Positions 7,610-35,406 of a stretch of DNA of 49,053 nt are shown here, one piece after another. The first letter of the stretch is position 1. Every line of letters begins with the position of its first letter. This DNA comes from Deltaproteobacteria bacterium (GTDB taxonomy: Bacteria; Desulfobacterota; DSM-4660; Desulfatiglandales; HGW-15). The stretch spans positions 1 through 49,053 of the forward strand of contig JAFGGA010000039.1 in assembly GCA_016930835.1 (NCBI GenBank), in the 5' to 3' direction. The notes beneath the pieces were generated by a model. The model had not been told where the DNA came from, searched no databases, and was given only the letters and a program-made list of their open reading frames with translations. Position numbers and translations under genes: made by a program.

Positions 7610-8638
7610 ATGAAGGCAATCGTAAAATATGATGAAAAGGCGGGATGTGTCGGTATCCGGGAAATGCCCGAACCGGAACCCGGCCCCTTTGATGTTAAGG
7701 TTCAGATTAAGGCCACGGGACTTTGTTATTCGGATATGTCCATCATCCAGAATAAATATGTCGGCCGAAAACCGGTGCCGATTCCGCTGATTCTGGGGCA
7801 TGAGGGAGCGGGTGTCGTCGTAAAAACGGGAGAGGCTGTCCGTAATGTGGCCGTGGGTGACCGTGTCGGCATGGTGCCCATTGAAGGATGTATGGTCTGT
7901 TCCGATTGCCTCAGCGGCAATGAAAATATGTGCATGAATTGGCGTCATCTCGGAATTACGTATCACGGTACGTTTGCGGAATACACCGTTACACCCGCCG
8001 CCAAAGCGCACAAGATCCCCGATGAGGTCTCCTTCGTGGACGCCGCATGTCTGGAACCAATCGGTTTGTCGGCCCGCACCTTTGAACTGGTGAAATTTCA
8101 ACTCGGCGATACCGTGGCCATAGTCGGCCCGGGATCTCTGGGCATTTTTCATCTCCAGGCCTTTAAAGCGGCCGGAGCGGCCAAGGTCATCATGATCGGC
8201 CTGGATCAGGATAAGGAGCGGTTCGAGGTGGCAAAAATAATCGGTGCGGATATCGTCAATGGGAGCAAGGAGGATGTCGTCTCCCGCGTATTTGAGCTGA
8301 CAGACGGTAAAGGGGTCGATGTTGCGGTTGAAACGGCCAACTCTCCGGCCGCTACCAGGCTGGCCATCGACGTCACCGGTAACAAGGGCCGCGTTGCATT
8401 ATTCGGTTTATATCCTGAGGCGAACATCAGCCCCCTTGTTATTACTCGCCGTGGGTTAACCGTGATTGGTGATGTTGCCCAAGTGCAAAGGCATTATTTG
8501 CGTGCCATGCGATGGGTTGCCCAAGGCTATGTGCGGGCTGAGCCGTTCATCTCTCGCACCTATCATTTGGATGAATTTGAGGAGGCATTCGCGCCCGATA
8601 ACTTAGGGAAAACATTTAAAGTCATATTTGAAATCTAA
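7610..8638 (+). CDS. Zinc-dependent alcohol dehydrogenase (MDR superfamily)
   Basis: This 342-residue protein is a medium-chain zinc alcohol dehydrogenase. The catalytic zinc region is TGLCYSDMS near residue 40, with GHEGAGVV following. The structural zinc lobe is C-x2-C-x2-C-x7-C in GCMVCSDCLSGNENMC. The Rossmann fold reads VGPGSLGIFHLQAFKAAGA, with an acidic end of the second strand (IGLDQDK) that favours NAD. I start at ATG 7610, with GGGAG 7 bases upstream; the alternative at 7577 has no ribosome site and lies next to the family A repeat. It lies between two Gfo/Idh dehydrogenases and a dehydroquinase. In Thermotoga the corresponding MDR enzyme oxidises scyllo-inosose, so a second ring oxidation of a cyclitol is a reasonable inference. 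Confidence 0.92.
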   Translation: MKAIVKYDEKAGCVGIREMPEPEPGPFDVKVQIKATGLCYSDMSIIQNKYVGRKPVPIPLILGHEGAGVVVKTGEAVRNVAVGDRVGMVPIEGCMVCSDCLSGNENMCMNWRHLGITYHGTFAEYTVTPAAKAHKIPDEVSFVDAACLEPIGLSARTFELVKFQLGDTVAIVGPGSLGIFHLQAFKAAGAAKVIMIGLDQDKERFEVAKIIGADIVNGSKEDVVSRVFELTDGKGVDVAVETANSPAATRLAIDVTGNKGRVALFGLYPEANISPLVITRRGLTVIGDVAQVQRHYLRAMRWVAQGYVRAEPFISRTYHLDEFEEAFAPDNLGKTFKVIFEI

Positions 8639-19444: not shown

Positions 19445-19484
19445 GCCGTGGGCAGAGATCATGAAACCATGGCTTTTTTTATTT
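19445..19484 (+). terminator. Attenuator terminator before aroKB
   Basis: GCCGTGG (19445-19451) pairs with CCATGGC (19467-19473) with one G-T wobble. A run of seven T, then ATTTT, follows. The 5' arm continues as GCCGTGGGCA, the same sequence that opens the aroC terminator and nearly the same as the first trp terminator. It lies inside the 5' leader, about 70 bases before the start codon, so it acts as an attenuator and not as the end of the MFS unit. I see only a weak candidate antiterminator partner (GCCTG at 19395). Confidence 0.65.
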
Positions 19485-19553
19485 TACATCCATGAGGCAT
19501 CAACCCATAAGCTTCATTCGATTTCTTGCTTTCAACCAGGCGGAGGTATGAAC

Positions 19554-21143
19554 ATGACCAGACCGAATATCATCCTAACGGGGTTTATGGCCACCGGCAA
19601 GACCACTGTGGGAAAATTACTCTCAAAACAGCTCGGATACGAATTTGTGGATACGGACGAGTTGATTGAAGCCCGTACCGGCCAGACCATTGCCGAGATA
19701 TTCCGTGAAAAAGGTGAACCGGCCTTTCGAAAGATGGAATCGGATCTGGCAAGGGAACTGGCGGATAAAGATGGGCTTGTCATTTCCACTGGCGGCCGTT
19801 TGATGCTGGATGCGGATAACGCGGAAGCCCTGGGGAAAAGCGGCCGCGTCTTTTGTCTCGTGGCTACCCCTGAAGAGATATTGGAACGTGTTGAACGAGA
19901 TACGGGGGTACGAAGACCGTTACTTGAAGTCCCGAACCCGATTGAGCGTGTCGTGGAACTTCTACAGCAACGCGAAAAAGGTTATGGCCGTTTCTCCCAG
20001 ATGGTGACCTCGGATAAAATTCCGGAAATCGTTTGTCAAAACCTGTTCGGCATCATCCAGGCAAAGCCGGATCTGCGCCTGCCCATCAAGGCCCCTGTTA
20101 CACGGTATGAATTCATAGTCGGTGGAGGCATCTTGCCTTTTATCATCCAACTGGCCGGTATAAAAGGGCCGGTCGCTATCATCACCGATAGCCATGTCGA
20201 GCCGTTATATGCCAAGAGCTGCGGATCAGTCGATGTGGTTGTGACTGTGCCGCCCGGTGGACGGTATAAAACATTAGAAACCGTTCAATTTATCTTTGAT
20301 AAGCTGCTGGAATCTGATTTTGACAGAAGTGGAGCGATCATTGCCCTTGGCGGGTCTGTTATCAGTGAAATGGCCGGCTTCGTTGCAGCGACATATATGA
20401 GAGGAGTCGACTGCATCCAGTGCCCCACCAGTCTCCTGGCAATGGTGGATACAAGTATCGGAGGCAAAGTCGGTGTGGATCTGCCGCAGGGCAAGAATCT
20501 GGTAGGTTCCTTTAAACAACCCAAGGCCATCATCGCGGATGTGGCCACATTACAGAGCCTTCCTCCAAGAGAATTCGCATCGGGTATGGCTGAAGTGATC
20601 AAACACAGTCTTATCGCTGATACGGATCTGCTCAATAAAATAGAGGCCGGCCATTGGCAACGGGGATTGAATGATCTTCAACCTTCCCTCTCGGATCTTC
20701 AAGCCCTCGTAGCCCAAGCCATCCAGGTCAAGACCCATATCGTCCAGGAAGACCCCTTTGACCAGGGACGCAGACGAATGCTCAACCTGGGACACACATT
20801 CGGTCATGCCATCGAACAGGTCAGTGGGAATACCATTCGGCATGGAGAGGCTGTTTCAATGGGACTTGTAGCGGCCGTAAACCTCTCAGCACGCATGGGC
20901 TATTGTTCCCCTGTCTTGCAGGAACGTATCGAGTCTGCTCTCGTGCAGGCAGGTCTCCCCATCAGGATCCCGATGGATATGATCCCTGCCAGGCTTTTTG
21001 GCGCTATGAGCAGTGACAAAAAAAAGACGGCTGGTCGTCTAAGATTTGTCCTGCTTAGGGATATCGGGGATGTATTGATTACGGATGCCGTGCCTCAACC
21101 AGCGGTAGTTGCAACCCTTGAAGAATTGACCTTAACAGAATGA
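19554..21143 (+). CDS. aroKB: Shikimate kinase-3-dehydroquinate synthase fusion protein
   Basis: This 529-residue protein joins two shikimate-pathway enzymes. Residues 1 to about 175 are shikimate kinase: Walker A GFMATGKTTVGK (10-21), DTDE (33-36), and the lid RRPLL near 121. Residues about 195-529 are dehydroquinate synthase: PTSLLAMVDTSIGGKVGVDL, GKNLVGSF, AEVIKH, LNLGHTFGHAIE and HGEAVSMG. Two conserved spots differ from consensus. The kinase GGG is GGR (80-82). The synthase NAD-site GGGxxxD is GGSVISE. A separate canonical aroB lies at 30173-31201. I start at ATG 19554, 7 bases after GGAGG; ATG 19548 is too close. The end overlaps uvrA by four bases. A leader attenuator precedes it. Confidence 0.93.
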   Translation: MTRPNIILTGFMATGKTTVGKLLSKQLGYEFVDTDELIEARTGQTIAEIFREKGEPAFRKMESDLARELADKDGLVISTGGRLMLDADNAEALGKSGRVFCLVATPEEILERVERDTGVRRPLLEVPNPIERVVELLQQREKGYGRFSQMVTSDKIPEIVCQNLFGIIQAKPDLRLPIKAPVTRYEFIVGGGILPFIIQLAGIKGPVAIITDSHVEPLYAKSCGSVDVVVTVPPGGRYKTLETVQFIFDKLLESDFDRSGAIIALGGSVISEMAGFVAATYMRGVDCIQCPTSLLAMVDTSIGGKVGVDLPQGKNLVGSFKQPKAIIADVATLQSLPPREFASGMAEVIKHSLIADTDLLNKIEAGHWQRGLNDLQPSLSDLQALVAQAIQVKTHIVQEDPFDQGRRRMLNLGHTFGHAIEQVSGNTIRHGEAVSMGLVAAVNLSARMGYCSPVLQERIESALVQAGLPIRIPMDMIPARLFGAMSSDKKKTAGRLRFVLLRDIGDVLITDAVPQPAVVATLEELTLTE

Positions 21144-28516: not shown

Positions 28517-29782
28517 TCACAATCCATCCCACCATTCCCAAAATGTGGGGAAGGATTTTTCCACACAATTCTCCTCTATAACACGCACACCAGGGACTCT
28601 TAGACCGATAATGCCGGCGCTCATGGCCAGGCGGTGATCATGATGGGGATCAACCTGCCTACCGGTTAGCCTGCTCCCGCCATGAATAACCAGGCCGTCA
28701 TTCAACACATCCACCACGCCGCCCATCCCCACCCACTCGACGGCCAAATCCCTTAGACGATCACTCTCCTTATACCGCAGATGAGCCACGTTTCTTATCA
28801 CGGTTTTCCCTTCGGCAAAAAGGGCAACAGCGGCCAGAGTGGGCACCATATCCGGCATCGCACCCATATCCACATCCACACCTCTTAATTGGCCGCCTTG
28901 CACGGTGACGCGATCTGTATCCTTGATGATACGGCAACCCATCTCCTCCAAAACACCCAACAGGCCGATATCCCCCTGTCTGGTCTGATATGGATGGATA
29001 TTTTCCGTAATAATGGTACCACCTGTTACGGCAGCGGCTCCCCAAAAGTATGATGCGCTGGATATATCGCCATCGACGATGAAACTACAGGGATGATACC
29101 GGCTGCCCGCTTGGACCTTGAAATGCGCATAAGCATCCCGTTCCACTTGGACCCCGAAGCGGTTCATCACATCAATAGTGATATCCACGTACGGTCGTGA
29201 GACCAGATCGCCGATAACTTCTATCTCAAGATCCTTTTTGCCGTATGCCCCCGTCAGAAGCAGTGACGAGATATACTGGCTGCTTATTTTTCCGGGAATA
29301 CGCACTCGACCGCCATGGATCCCCTTGGCCCTGACAGATACAGGCGGATATCCGTCTTTTCCCAGATAAAAAACATTTACACCCAGATCATTCAATGCCT
29401 GGACCAGATCACCGATGGGACGCTCTTGCATGCGGGGCGTCCCATGGAGTATATATTCGCCCTGACCAAGGGCCGCGACAGAGAGCAAAAGCCGATAGGA
29501 TGTACCTGAATTACCTAAGAATATCTCTTTTGTTCGAACGAAATGATCAAAATCTCCACCGTTACCGGACACCAAAACACGGTCTCCTTCAGCAGAGATA
29601 TCAATCCCCATATCTCTTAATCCATTGATGGTACGGAAGGTATCCTCACAATCAAGGAACGCCTCCAACCGGCTTTCACCTTTGGCCAGTCCGGCGGTGA
29701 TAAGAGCCCTATGAGAAATGCTCTTTGATCCCGGGATCCTGATGGAGGCATTGATATTGTTTCGGGTTTGGATCTCTTTCAT
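28517..29782 (-). CDS. aroA: 3-phosphoshikimate 1-carboxyvinyltransferase (EPSP synthase)
   Basis: This 421-residue protein is EPSP synthase, which joins shikimate-3-phosphate with phosphoenolpyruvate. GSKSISHRAL (residues 18-27) holds the catalytic Lys and phosphate-binding Ser/Arg. FLGNSGTSYRLL corresponds to the PEP-binding GNAGT region. RYKESDRLRD and DHRLAMS are C-terminal family motifs. It is the last gene of the minus-strand aroC-aroB-aroA set. A 258-base family B repeat fills most of the 390-base gap to aroB, so co-transcription is likely but not certain. The ribosome site before ATG 29782 is weak (AAGAAAC). Confidence 0.96.
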   Translation of the reverse strand: MKEIQTRNNINASIRIPGSKSISHRALITAGLAKGESRLEAFLDCEDTFRTINGLRDMGIDISAEGDRVLVSGNGGDFDHFVRTKEIFLGNSGTSYRLLLSVAALGQGEYILHGTPRMQERPIGDLVQALNDLGVNVFYLGKDGYPPVSVRAKGIHGGRVRIPGKISSQYISSLLLTGAYGKKDLEIEVIGDLVSRPYVDITIDVMNRFGVQVERDAYAHFKVQAGSRYHPCSFIVDGDISSASYFWGAAAVTGGTIITENIHPYQTRQGDIGLLGVLEEMGCRIIKDTDRVTVQGGQLRGVDVDMGAMPDMVPTLAAVALFAEGKTVIRNVAHLRYKESDRLRDLAVEWVGMGGVVDVLNDGLVIHGGSRLTGRQVDPHHDHRLAMSAGIIGLRVPGVRVIEENCVEKSFPTFWEWWDGL

Positions 29783-29818
29783 ATGGCTGTTTCTTGTTTT
29801 TTAAATAATCCTTGTATC

Positions 29819-30076
29819 ATTTTAGCTTTTTGAAAAACTTGGCGCGAACCCATGGATTCCGCGATCAAGTCACGGAATGACCAGCCTAATTTGTGGTTAC
29901 GCGACTGTAAATGATCACCTCTGGTTTTTGCACGGTCATTCCGCGATCAGGTCGCGGAATGACCAATATAGTTCTCGGTTACAGAACAGTAACTTGCCAT
30001 TTCTGTTTTCTGCCCGTCATTCCGCGACTTGATCGCGGAATCCAATCGTTTGGATTTAGAAAAACCTAAATTGTTA
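29819..30076. repeat. Family B interspersed element with three palindromes, between aroB and aroA
   Basis: This is the longest copy (258 bases). Three palindromes of the type ATTCCGCGA-n-TCGCGGAAT begin at 29856, 29938 and 30019, at intervals of 82 and 81 bases. The first inter-palindrome segment matches that of the copies at 11.9 and 48.1 kb. The second (with CGGTTACAGAACAGTAACTT) matches the copy at 35.0 kb. The ends are the same as at 11861-12038. Non-coding, inserted within the aro operon. Confidence 0.85.
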
Positions 30077-30172
30077 CTAATCTTTCAGATCTATCGAACG
30101 TGATTCGGGAAGCCAACTGATCAAACTTCCCATCTGTTATTTCTTGCGAAATCATCACTTCATTCTTCCGTC

Positions 30173-31201
30173 TCAATTCTGTCCCATTATCACAGCCTCA
30201 AGCTCCCTAAGGGGTATCTCTTCCAAAACGGCATTCCCGATCCCTTGCAGTAGTACAAAATCGACAAAATCGCCTTTTCTTTTTTTGTCTTTCCGAAGGG
30301 CGTCAAGTATCTCGACCTTGTTTAAGGAGAGTTCAGTCGGTAATTTCAGTTTTCGTAATAAGGCTTCGAGACGATTCGTATCCTCAGGGGATATATTCCC
30401 TCGCTTTTCAGAGAGTCTGGCGGCAACCACCATGCCCGCGCTGACAGCCTCTCCGTGCTGGATACCCGTAACTTTTTCAATGGCATGGCCGAATGTATGG
30501 CCGAAGTTGAGCTTTTTTCGCTCACCGTCCTCCCTTTCATCCTTGTTTACCAGGGCGGTCTTAATAACCACCGAATCATATACGAGCCTTTCTATAAGAT
30601 CCGCTTCCAAATTCAAGGCCTCTTGATGATTTTCCTCAAGATAGGAGAATAATCCCGCATCGGCAATGGCACCGTGTTTTACGATTTCGGCGAGGCCACA
30701 TAAAACCTCTCTTTCAGGAAGGGTTTTTAGAAGACTCATATCGCAAATAACAATCTCAGGTTGGTTAATCATGCCCATGATATTCTTATACCCTTTAAAA
30801 TTTACGCCATTCTTACCCCCCACGCTGGCATCCACCTGGGAAAGGAGGGTTGTGGAGACAAAACCAAACCGGATGCCGCGCATAAAGGTTGATGCCACAA
30901 ATCCCGCAATGTCACATACGATCCCACCACCGATCCCGATGATAAAACTGGAACGATCCGCCTCCAGATGAAGAAGTCTTCCATATATCTCCCTAACCGT
31001 ATCAAGGGTTTTGATCTGCTCACCGGTCCCGATCTCAATGATTTCATAAGGAGGGAAATCCTTTCGATAAAATGCTGACACGTTCGTATCCGTGATAATC
31101 ACGGCTTTCTCGACCGGGACGTACGTTTTTAGATTTTGAAGGCTCTCGCCGATCAGGATAATCGAATTGCCTTGGTTTCCGTTTATTTCAATGGTCTTCA
31201 T
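30173..31201 (-). CDS. aroB: 3-dehydroquinate synthase
   Basis: This 342-residue protein is a canonical dehydroquinate synthase, converting DAHP to 3-dehydroquinate with NAD and a divalent metal. The NAD region IGIGGGIVCDIAGFVAS keeps the GGGxxxD motif. STTLLSQVDASVGGKNGVNF, AEIVKHG, LNFGHTFGHAIE and HGEAVSAG follow, giving the metal ligands and phosphate site. It is encoded 18 bases after aroC on the minus strand, with GGAGTG before the ATG. It is a second synthase beside the fused one at 19554-21143, and of the two this copy keeps the standard motifs. Confidence 0.96.
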   Translation of the reverse strand: MKTIEINGNQGNSIILIGESLQNLKTYVPVEKAVIITDTNVSAFYRKDFPPYEIIEIGTGEQIKTLDTVREIYGRLLHLEADRSSFIIGIGGGIVCDIAGFVASTFMRGIRFGFVSTTLLSQVDASVGGKNGVNFKGYKNIMGMINQPEIVICDMSLLKTLPEREVLCGLAEIVKHGAIADAGLFSYLEENHQEALNLEADLIERLVYDSVVIKTALVNKDEREDGERKKLNFGHTFGHAIEKVTGIQHGEAVSAGMVVAARLSEKRGNISPEDTNRLEALLRKLKLPTELSLNKVEILDALRKDKKRKGDFVDFVLLQGIGNAVLEEIPLRELEAVIMGQN

Positions 31202-31219: not shown

Positions 31220-32272
31220 CTATTTCATGGCTTTGAATCGCAAATAGTGATCCGCCAGCGTAAGTTTCACCATGGCCTCTAGTACCGGGACGATCCTAGG
31301 GATTGCCGTCACGTCATACCTCCCTGTCATCCTAATCTTCGCGGGTTGCCCCTGACGATCAATGGTATCCTGCTCCTTGCCTATGGTTGGAATGGGTTTA
31401 ACCGCCGCCCTTAGAATGATATCATCACCGTTCGATATACCTCCAAGGATACCGCCGGCGTTGTTTCCTTGAAACCCCTCCGGCAGAATAGGATCATTGT
31501 TCTCCGAACCCTTGAGTCTTGCGGCCGCGAAACCCGCTCCAATTTCAACACCTTTCACGGCCCCAACGGACATGAGCGCCTTTGCCAATTCCGCATCCAG
31601 CTTATCAAATACCGGCTCCCCCAGCCCGGCGGGGCAGCCCTTTACGAGAACCTCTACAATGCCCCCCACTGAATCACCTTCTTCTTTGGCCTTCGCTAAA
31701 ACCTGTGCCATAAGTTTGGAGGCGTCAGGGTCCGGGCAATAAAATGGATCGGTCTCAATGGATGCCAAGGATCTCGACTCGGCCTGAACACCTCCCAACT
31801 CAACGGTGTACGCCCGTACCCGGATACCCGGAGGTTCAATGATTTTCCCTGCCACTACACCCGCCGCCACCCTGGCAGCGGTTTCACGTGCCGAATAACG
31901 GCCAGCGCCTCGATAATCAAAATGTTGATATTTTTTAAAATATGTATAATCCCCATGGCCCGGACGAAAAAGCTGGCCGATGATGTCATATGGTTTGCTT
32001 TTCACGTCCCGATTCCTGATAAAAAGGACGATCGGCGCGCCTGTTGTGAGATCTTGAAAAACACCGGATAGGATCTCCACCTGATCCTCCTCTTTTCTTG
32101 GCGTATCAAAGGCCCTTTTACCCGGCCTGCGCCGGGCCATATCTTGTTCAAAGTCCTCGGGTGCCAGGGGGATGCTTGAAGGGCAACCGTCAATCACGGC
32201 ACCAATTCCCGCCCCATGGGACTCTCCAAATGTGGTAATACGAAAGATATTCCCGAGTGTGTTTCCAGCCAT
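31220..32272 (-). CDS. aroC: Chorismate synthase
   Basis: This 350-residue protein catalyses the last step of the common pathway, EPSP to chorismate, using reduced FMN. Signatures are FGESHGAGIGAVIDGCP near the N-terminus, RPGKRAFDTPRKEED, the central YRGAGRYSARETAARVAAG, and RYDVTAIPR near the end. I choose ATG 32272, as GAGGG lies 7-8 bases upstream; the longer in-frame start at 32299 runs toward the attenuator hairpin. It is the first enzyme gene of the aroCBA unit and is preceded by a leader peptide and terminator. Confidence 0.96.
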   Translation of the reverse strand: MAGNTLGNIFRITTFGESHGAGIGAVIDGCPSSIPLAPEDFEQDMARRRPGKRAFDTPRKEEDQVEILSGVFQDLTTGAPIVLFIRNRDVKSKPYDIIGQLFRPGHGDYTYFKKYQHFDYRGAGRYSARETAARVAAGVVAGKIIEPPGIRVRAYTVELGGVQAESRSLASIETDPFYCPDPDASKLMAQVLAKAKEEGDSVGGIVEVLVKGCPAGLGEPVFDKLDAELAKALMSVGAVKGVEIGAGFAAARLKGSENNDPILPEGFQGNNAGGILGGISNGDDIILRAAVKPIPTIGKEQDTIDRQGQPAKIRMTGRYDVTAIPRIVPVLEAMVKLTLADHYLRFKAMK

Positions 32273-32304: not shown

Positions 32305-32341
32305 AATAAAAAAAGCCGTGAGCATCCTGATTGCCCACGGC
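32305..32341 (-). terminator. Attenuator terminator before aroC
   Basis: On the minus strand GCCGTGGGC (32341-32333) pairs with GCTCACGGC (32323-32315), 9 pairs with one G-T wobble, followed by seven T and ATTG. The hairpin lies 33 bases before the chosen aroC start and directly after the leader peptide ORF. An upstream segment GCTCATGG (minus strand, end of the leader ORF) can pair with CCGTGGGC of the 5' arm, giving a plausible antiterminator of eight pairs with two wobbles. Its 5' arm matches those of the aroKB and trp hairpins. Confidence 0.8.
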
Positions 32342-32363
32342 TTGTTGTTAAAACATAAAAACA

Positions 32364-32432
32364 TCAAACCATGAGCGGACCTCTACCCCAAGAAAAAAAA
32401 CAAATGCCCTGCCATGGTTGCTCATTTCTCAT
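32364..32432 (-). CDS. Putative aromatic leader peptide of the aroCBA attenuator
   Basis: This 22-codon ORF has Trp at codon 7, Phe-Phe at 12-13 and Trp at 15 (context GICFFSWGRG), then ends 22 bases before a strong intrinsic terminator. AAAGG lies 9 bases before the ATG, and a good promoter lies about 34 bases upstream. The last codons contain the region-2 sequence GCTCATGG that can pair with the terminator's 5' arm. Ribosomes pausing at Phe or Trp codons would therefore allow antitermination. This is too short for ordinary gene calling. Translation is inferred. Confidence 0.7.
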   Translation of the reverse strand: MRNEQPWQGICFFSWGRGPLMV

Positions 32433-32465
32433 GCTTTTACGCCTTTGCTTTAGGAATTTGCGGTT

Positions 32466-32493
32466 ATTTTAGTAGATTCGGGTTCTTTGTCAA
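32466..32493 (-). promoter_or_regulatory. Promoter of the aroCBA leader
   Basis: On the minus strand TTGACA (32493-32488), a 16-base spacer and TAAAAT (32471-32466) form a strong sigma-70 promoter. It overlaps the last codon of the histidine kinase gene, so the aro unit has its own start of transcription. Confidence 0.75.
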
Positions 32494-34821: not shown

Positions 34822-35152
34822 CCGCTGGATTCCGGCCTTCACCTGTCCGCGTGCGAACACGCACAGGCAGGCCGGGATGGCGGGGGCGTGGGCAATTACG
34901 AGACAGTGAATAATTGACAAACTCGTAAAAAGTCGTCACCCCGGTCCCCTATCAGGTACGGGATAGACCGCGGCCGAGGTCCAGAGCCCATGTAACTATT
35001 TGAAAAGACTGGATTCCGCGATCGAGTCATGGAATGACCAATATCGTTCACGGTTATAGAACAGTAACTTGGCATTCCTGTTTCCTGCCAGTCATTCCGC
35101 GACTTGATTGCGGAATCCAATTTTTAGGTTTTTGAAAAAATCTAAATGTTTA
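34822..35152. repeat. Composite of family A and family B repeat fragments upstream of the trp promoter
   Basis: Left part (about 34826-34877) is an inverted fragment with the hairpin CCTGTGCGTG...GCACGC...ACAGG, also present inside the element at 48489-48679. From about 34915 a family A end (CTCGTAAAAAGTCGTCACC) leads into GGGATAGACCGCGGCCGAGG and GACTGGATTCC. The remainder is family B: palindromes at 35013 and 35094 (81 bases apart), with the same inter-palindrome segment as in the aroB-aroA copy. So the two families are fused here. It ends 15 bases before the trp promoter. Non-coding. Confidence 0.75.
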
Positions 35153-35202: not shown

Positions 35203-35274
35203 ATGAATCATGAACAACGATATCATTATATTTCTTTAGGCAACTGGTGGTGGCTCAACTCTGACCTTTCATGA
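35203..35274 (+). CDS. trpL: trp operon leader peptide
   Basis: This 23-codon ORF contains three consecutive Trp codons at positions 15-17 (context SLGNWWWLNSDLS) and a stop at 35272-35274. It lies between the promoter and a strong terminator ahead of trpE, exactly as in classical trp attenuation. The Trp codons sit at the base of a first hairpin (see the attenuator entry), so ribosome stalling there would expose region 2. No ribosome site is visible and the start codon is at the predicted mRNA 5' end, so it may be translated as a leaderless message. Confidence 0.88.
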   Translation: MNHEQRYHYISLGNWWWLNSDLS

Positions 35275-35349
35275 GGTGAGCCCGCAGAAATATCTTGATA
35301 TAATCCATATAACCGTGGGCACCTCTCAAAGGTCCCACGGTTTTTTATT
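35252..35349 (+). promoter_or_regulatory. trp attenuator with alternative hairpins and intrinsic terminator
   Basis: Three mutually exclusive pairings can be drawn. In 1:2, GGCTC (35252-35256) pairs with GAGCC (35278-35282) and ACCT (35264-35267) with AGGT (35274-35277). In 2:3 (antiterminator), GAGGT (35273-35277) plus GCCC (35280-35283) pairs with GGGC plus ACCTC (35317-35325). In 3:4 (terminator), AACCGTGGG (35311-35319) pairs with CCCACGGTT (35334-35342) and ACCT with AGGT inside, followed by a T run. Region 1 begins inside the third Trp codon. This is full classical trp attenuator architecture. Confidence 0.9.
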
Positions 35350-35360
35350 GGTAAATAATA

Positions 35361-35394
35361 GGCCGTGGGATATGTAAACCCGCGGCCTTTTTTT
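35361..35394 (+). terminator. Second intrinsic terminator-like hairpin directly before trpE
   Basis: GGCCGTGGG (35361-35369) pairs with CCCGCGGCC (35379-35387), nine pairs with one wobble, loop of nine, then seven T. The trpE ribosome site AGGAG follows at once (35395-35399). It starts only 12 bases after the first terminator's T tract and reuses the same CCGTGGG 5' arm. It could act as a back-up terminator or control access to the trpE ribosome site. Confidence 0.8.
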
Positions 35395-35406
35395 AGGAGT
35401 GATCAA

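Follow-up and report, generated by a model that had tools for sequence, protein, structure and literature searches.

A probable ribosome-mediated attenuator with Trp and Phe codons upstream of aroC in a Desulfobacterota genome

Chorismate synthase gene aroC, together with aroB and probably aroA, is very probably controlled by a ribosome-mediated transcription attenuator in the window analyzed here (a 49,053-nt stretch of contig DNA, taken in full). The comparative and sequence evidence consists of a conserved leader peptide and terminator, a predicted antiterminator that covaries, the placement of the control codons relative to region 2 and the aromatic biosynthesis genes downstream; from it we infer the steps of translation, stalling, termination and response to starvation. 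RNA polymerase would begin some 30 nt 5' of the leader ORF, from which a ribosome would make the peptide MRNEQPWQGICFFSWGRGPLMV. With ample Trp and Phe, the ribosome would reach the stop codon and cover region 2, such that regions 3 and 4 would pair and transcription would end after about 150 nt. If charged tRNA-Trp or tRNA-Phe were scarce, the ribosome would instead stall on W7, F12, F13 or W15 and cover region 1, the 2:3 antiterminator would form, and aroC would be transcribed. Were the leader left untranslated, regions 1 and 2 would pair and the terminator would form. In the order at large, the leaders typically carry Trp, Phe and Tyr codons, and all three aromatic amino acids should be sensed; because relatives share the same switch, the aromatic pathway is most likely turned on when ribosomes stall for any one of them.

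An earlier note on this DNA had described an aroCBA operon behind a Trp/Phe leader peptide and attenuator. The genes aroC and aroB are indeed adjacent and co-directional, with aroB directly 3' of aroC, but aroA lies beyond 390 nt of noncoding DNA, so operon status is secure for aroC-aroB only and co-transcription of aroA is putative. No aroK gene lies between the leader and aroC. A second aroB, apparently fused to shikimate kinase (aroK-aroB), is found apart from the aroCB cluster at 19461-21143 (+), and no leader was seen upstream of this fusion. Similar copies of an interspersed repeat, whose translation reads DSAIKSRND.., occupy 29783-30172 (the aroB/aroA gap) and 34900-35120 (upstream of trpE).

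The leader elements that the earlier note had proposed were all recovered in the window copy (see the table). The minus-strand ORF has 22 codons, with its four aromatic codons clustered within nine of them, and the promoter lies about 33 nt 5' of its ATG. The strong terminator after the ORF has a stem spanning 32343-32313, with 12 pairs (7 G-C) and a loop of 7, followed by a T run. At the ORF end, GCTCATGG (32376-32369) can form 8 bp with CCGTGGGC (32340-32333), two of them G-U; in silico, the full match between regions 2 and 3 comes to 9 pairs. The fold of the leader RNA has a z score of -3.95 and was better than all 200 shuffles. An overlapping ORF picked by an automatic scan (MSNHGRAFVFF...) was rejected, as its ATG is internal and MRNEQPWQ is the window frame that corresponds to the leaders of relatives. 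The window also holds a second leader, that of trpE (35203-35395, +), in which two terminator-like hairpins follow each other.

Coordinates of the aroC locus and of the two leaders in the window
Feature	Position	Strand	Basis or remark
aroA, EPSP synthase	28517..29782	-	TIGR01356, 423 bits
aroB, 3-dehydroquinate synthase	30173..31201	-	TIGR01357, 338 bits
aroC, chorismate synthase	31220..32272	-	ATG at 32272; ORF; AroC relatives across the order
Region 4 TGCTCACGGCTT, 3' arm of predicted terminator, plus U tract	32306..32324	-	Sequence and covariation
Region 3 AAGCCGTGGGCAA, 5' arm of predicted terminator, partner of region 2	32331..32343	-	Sequence and covariation
Leader peptide ORF MRNEQPWQGICFFSWGRGPLMV, then stop	32364..32432	-	Homologous ORF in 40 other genomes of the order
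Region 2 CCGCTCATGG, partner of region 1 or region 3	32369..32378	-	Overlaps the ORF end
Control codons Trp7, Phe12, Phe13, Trp15	32388..32414	-	Sequence; aromatic codons of relatives similarly placed before the stop
Region 1 (codons 5-8, including Trp7), 5' arm of 1:2 hairpin	32410..32420	-	MFE fold
Shine-Dalgarno-like AAAGG	32442..32446	-	9 nt 5' of ATG; AAGG/GGAGG alike in many relatives
Sigma-70-like promoter TTGACA-16-TAAAAT	32466..32493	-	11/12 consensus match
trp leader peptide MNHEQRYHYISLGNWWWLNSDLS, then stop, before trpE	35203..35274	+	Second leader in the window
First trp leader terminator CCGTGGG..CCCACGG-T6	35313..35346	+	Sequence
Second terminator-like hairpin before trpE	35360..35395	+	Partial match of the aro leader model

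AroC is present in 53 of the 85 genomes of the order (a class-wide search gave the same 85 genomes), and a leader with terminator could be assigned upstream of aroK-aroC or aroC in 41 of these 53, including the window's; some of the AroC-bearing genomes without an assigned leader are cut by contig ends. The usual order is leader, aroK, aroC. The leader consensus, M..NQSWQ.FYFYF.GRGLPMD and then stop, consists of a Trp, a Phe/Tyr run and a C-terminal end set by the RNA, and W, F or Y make up 275 of the 982 residues of the 41 leaders. An ORF followed by a terminator was found in 39 of the 41 real leader regions, compared to 1 of 492 shuffled ones. Over the last 15 codons, the aromatic fraction is 37% in frame and 18-19% in the other frames. 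Alignment gaps within the ORF are 3, 6 or 15 nt long in 108 of 109 cases, whereas 1-2 nt is the usual length past the stop (counted per sequence, not per event). A promoter matching the consensus at 10 or more of 12 positions sits at the same place in 10 of the 41 leaders, against 0.7 in shuffles.

The proposed helices were scored for covariation on an alignment of 40 sequences. Antiterminator 2:3 is paired in 89.5% of cells, compared to 34-43% in slid controls, and 18 cells are changed on both sides versus a shuffle mean of 5.9. For terminator 3:4, 94.8% of cells are paired, and 30 are changed on both sides versus 6.5 in shuffles; as the sequences are related, the shuffle comparisons overstate independence, whereas the slid controls retain the relatedness. 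The 1:2 helix is weaker across relatives (73% of cells paired versus 28-51% when slid), a point against the proposed mechanism. The predicted terminator and antiterminator helices thus show compensatory changes.

We also folded only the RNA left uncovered by a ribosome, taken as free from 13 nt past the first base of the A-site codon. In the window copy, helices 1:2 and 3:4 form with no ribosome, 2:3 forms with the A site on W7, F12, F13 or W15, and 3:4 forms with the ribosome at the stop codon. When the complete RNA is folded at equilibrium, the terminator is favored over the antiterminator in most relatives, so that 2:3 would have to form co-transcriptionally in those relatives, as in known attenuators. 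Since such equilibrium folds are uninformative, RNA ending after region 3 was used instead: across 40 leaders, 2:3 formed in silico at 264 of 267 aromatic codons and in 0 of 40 leaders at the stop. Counting against the mechanism, the fold without a ribosome already paired 2:3 in 16 of 40. In these leaders, the computed sensing zone covers codons lying about 7 to 22 positions ahead of the stop. The aromatic codons of relatives match this zone, with peaks at 8-13 and 16-17 codons from the stop and almost none among the last seven. Taken together, the conserved leader, the covarying antiterminator and the predicted switch of fold upon ribosome masking support the attenuator first proposed from the window alone.

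The Trp/Phe character given to the leader in the earlier note holds for the window copy but not for the family, since the consensus predicts that a typical leader senses Trp, Phe and Tyr. Trp is missing from five of the 41 leaders, the window copy not among them; Tyr is missing from the window copy only. This copy therefore appears to be a Trp/Phe variant, with Tyr sensing at aroC lost in this genome. A further reading, which we consider unlikely, is that the family leader is real but degraded here, so that the response of the window copy may be weak or limited to Trp: the Tyr codons of the FYFYF stretch are lost, leaving four aromatic codons, and aroK is not found behind the leader. The DAHP synthase leader of the same genome likewise has Trp and Phe without Tyr. 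Against degradation, the promoter, the Shine-Dalgarno-like site, the W, FF and W codons and the 1:2, 2:3 and 3:4 pairings are all intact, and the masked window RNA behaves as designed.

We built a covariance model from the aro W/F/Y leaders and scanned the order and the phylum with it. At E≤0.01, leaders turned up in 61 of the order's 85 genomes; at E≤0.001, they did so in 108 of 395 genomes of the phylum (the E-values are rough, and the count includes uninspected weak matches). For about 120 leaders, the downstream genes were identified by comparison with references, mostly annotated by Pfam and NCBIfam. All three aromatics are present in 39 of 41 leaders with AroK as the first gene, in 15 of 17 before DAHP synthase (two type-I-beta groups), in 11 of 18 before ADH synthase and in none of the five with aroC directly behind the leader, the arrangement of the window. 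All 15 aminotransferase leaders have Phe and Tyr (two have Trp), three leaders before DAHPS-alpha with CM-TyrA are Tyr-rich without Trp, and the single trpE leader is Trp-rich. Of 81 common-pathway leaders, 67 contain Trp, compared to 8 of the 38 that are branch-specific or unassigned (Fisher p 1e-10, uncorrected for relatedness). Because W/F/Y leaders were used to build the model, it disfavors leaders without Trp, so the lack of Trp in those found is not made by the search. Four such leaders occur in the window's genome, namely those of aroC (W/F), trpE (WWW), DAHP synthase (FF WWW W) and an MBL-fold/acyl-CoA dehydratase locus (Y/F). The codon content thus tends to fit the downstream gene, with Trp, Phe and Tyr for the common pathway, Phe and Tyr for aminotransferases, a Tyr-rich content for DAHPS-alpha/TyrA and Trp for trpE.

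This dependence on the downstream gene also bears on whether the RNA is a metabolite- or tRNA-sensing element (riboswitch or T-box) or a protein-bound leader with an incidental ORF. A terminator and an antiterminator alone do not prove that the ribosome is the sensor, but a sensor that is not translated would not explain the codon content, and the consensus fold holds only the terminator. At the gathering score, no Rfam family, Trp_leader, Phe_leader and T-box included, reached its cut-off in the whole window or in 20 leader-bearing loci; at E≤10, the aroC leader gave no Trp_leader, Phe_leader or T-box match, and no family reached the cut-off in either window leader (aroC or trpE). We regard such a sensor as very improbable. 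Equally hard to credit is a second, trans-acting role of the peptide or of the terminated RNA, of the kind reported from Sinorhizobium for peTrpL (PMC7298713): the conserved C-terminal end of the peptide, GRGLPMD, would fit such a role, but region 2 of the RNA explains this end, and variants alter the peptide yet keep the 2:3 pairing. Least probable of all, and rejected, is an ordinary terminator of the histidine kinase gene that ends just upstream on the same strand (at 32490) with a chance ORF beside it, as none of the 40 other leaders has a kinase homologue upstream, the association of the leader with aroK/aroC is kept, and the ORF is conserved in frame with its aromatic codons, which shuffles hardly reproduce.

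The aro leader is predicted to work like trp, phe and ilv attenuation, and every testable defining feature of ribosome-mediated attenuators is found in it. A short conserved ORF, with in-frame indels and Shine-Dalgarno-like sites from which translation is predicted, precedes the operon; codons for the end products are clustered in it (W, FF and W in the window; W, F and Y in the order); an intrinsic terminator lies between leader and first gene; 2:3 covariation indicates a mutually exclusive antiterminator sharing the terminator's 5' arm; and in silico masking provides the evidence that a stall frees this antiterminator and a ribosome at the stop blocks it. With the trp attenuator of Escherichia coli and others (trpL; Rfam Trp_leader), it shares a Trp-codon ORF, regions 1-4, a terminator and the logic of the stalled ribosome, but it controls chorismate synthase, adds Phe codons (in relatives also Tyr), has its region 2 inside the last ORF codons and lacks an Rfam match; the trpE leader in the window is of the trpL kind. 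The pheA/pheST attenuators of gammaproteobacteria (Rfam Phe_leader) also combine a Phe-rich leader peptide with a terminator and antiterminator, but they serve other genes in another lineage, whereas the aroC leader is not limited to Phe and gives no Rfam match. The enterobacterial ilvGMEDA attenuator is multivalent, with one ORF sampling the three end products (Ile, Val and Leu) of a shared pathway. By description rather than sequence, the aro leaders share this multivalence, although for aromatic rather than branched-chain amino acids and in other genes and another lineage. Proteobacterial attenuators were reportedly surveyed by Vitreschak et al. in 2004.

In other former deltaproteobacteria, 5' control of the same pathway has been predicted. 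A putative attenuator lies before aroA'-aroB'-pheA-...-trp in Desulfovibrio vulgaris (Merino database, cited in Table 7 of PMC1173090), and a conserved 5' element of aroG-2 is given for Geobacter (PMC2700814). Both are likened here by description, and the relevant parts of these two papers describe them without a leader peptide or codon content. Our literature search found no description of a trivalent W/F/Y leader before aroKC, which is no proof of absence as subscription papers lay largely outside it.

Attenuation of single branches, such as trp, phe and his, is textbook biology. In the present case, the shared shikimate pathway itself appears to be under such control, with one leader sampling all three aromatic products, in a large and mostly uncultured group in which little is known of amino acid regulation. 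We lean towards the view that, in much of the phylum (Desulfobacterota-like), aromatic amino acid metabolism is governed by attenuators whose codons state the branch, and that this code also marks unassigned genes as Phe/Tyr-related. If so, these would include an MBL-fold gene beside acyl-CoA dehydratase, CoA ligases, an ABC binding protein and a protein of about 60 residues (EYALARPS) behind tandem leaders. As leader codons would report the amino acid that a gene serves, they offer a direct and testable lead to the roles of uncharacterized genes in these genomes.

Several of these loci are worth recording individually. In the window's draft genome (G000), where prephenate dehydratase (PF00800) was not found, the Tyr/Phe-rich leader MIKANQTIGTLYYYFYYFYGRGLLMV (contig C123, L164, model match at 8062-8203) is followed by genes for an MBL-fold protein, an acyl-CoA dehydratase activase and a 2-hydroxyacyl-CoA dehydratase-like protein. 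Phe/Tyr-rich leaders at L165, L168-L170, L181 and at L192, L199 precede either an MBL-fold fusion of about 800 aa or a protein of about 530 aa, which resembles the C-terminal part of the fusion and has no Pfam match. Tyr- or Phe-rich leaders at L235, L239, L166, L265, L260 and L261 stand before CoA ligases, IorA (indolepyruvate ferredoxin oxidoreductase) and an ABC-type substrate-binding protein, an association that suggests salvage or uptake of aromatic compounds. At L232, L233 and L241 (genomes of family f18), two tandem Phe/Tyr leaders precede a protein of 55-65 residues with the conserved C-terminus EYALARPS/V (EYAMARPS in L232).
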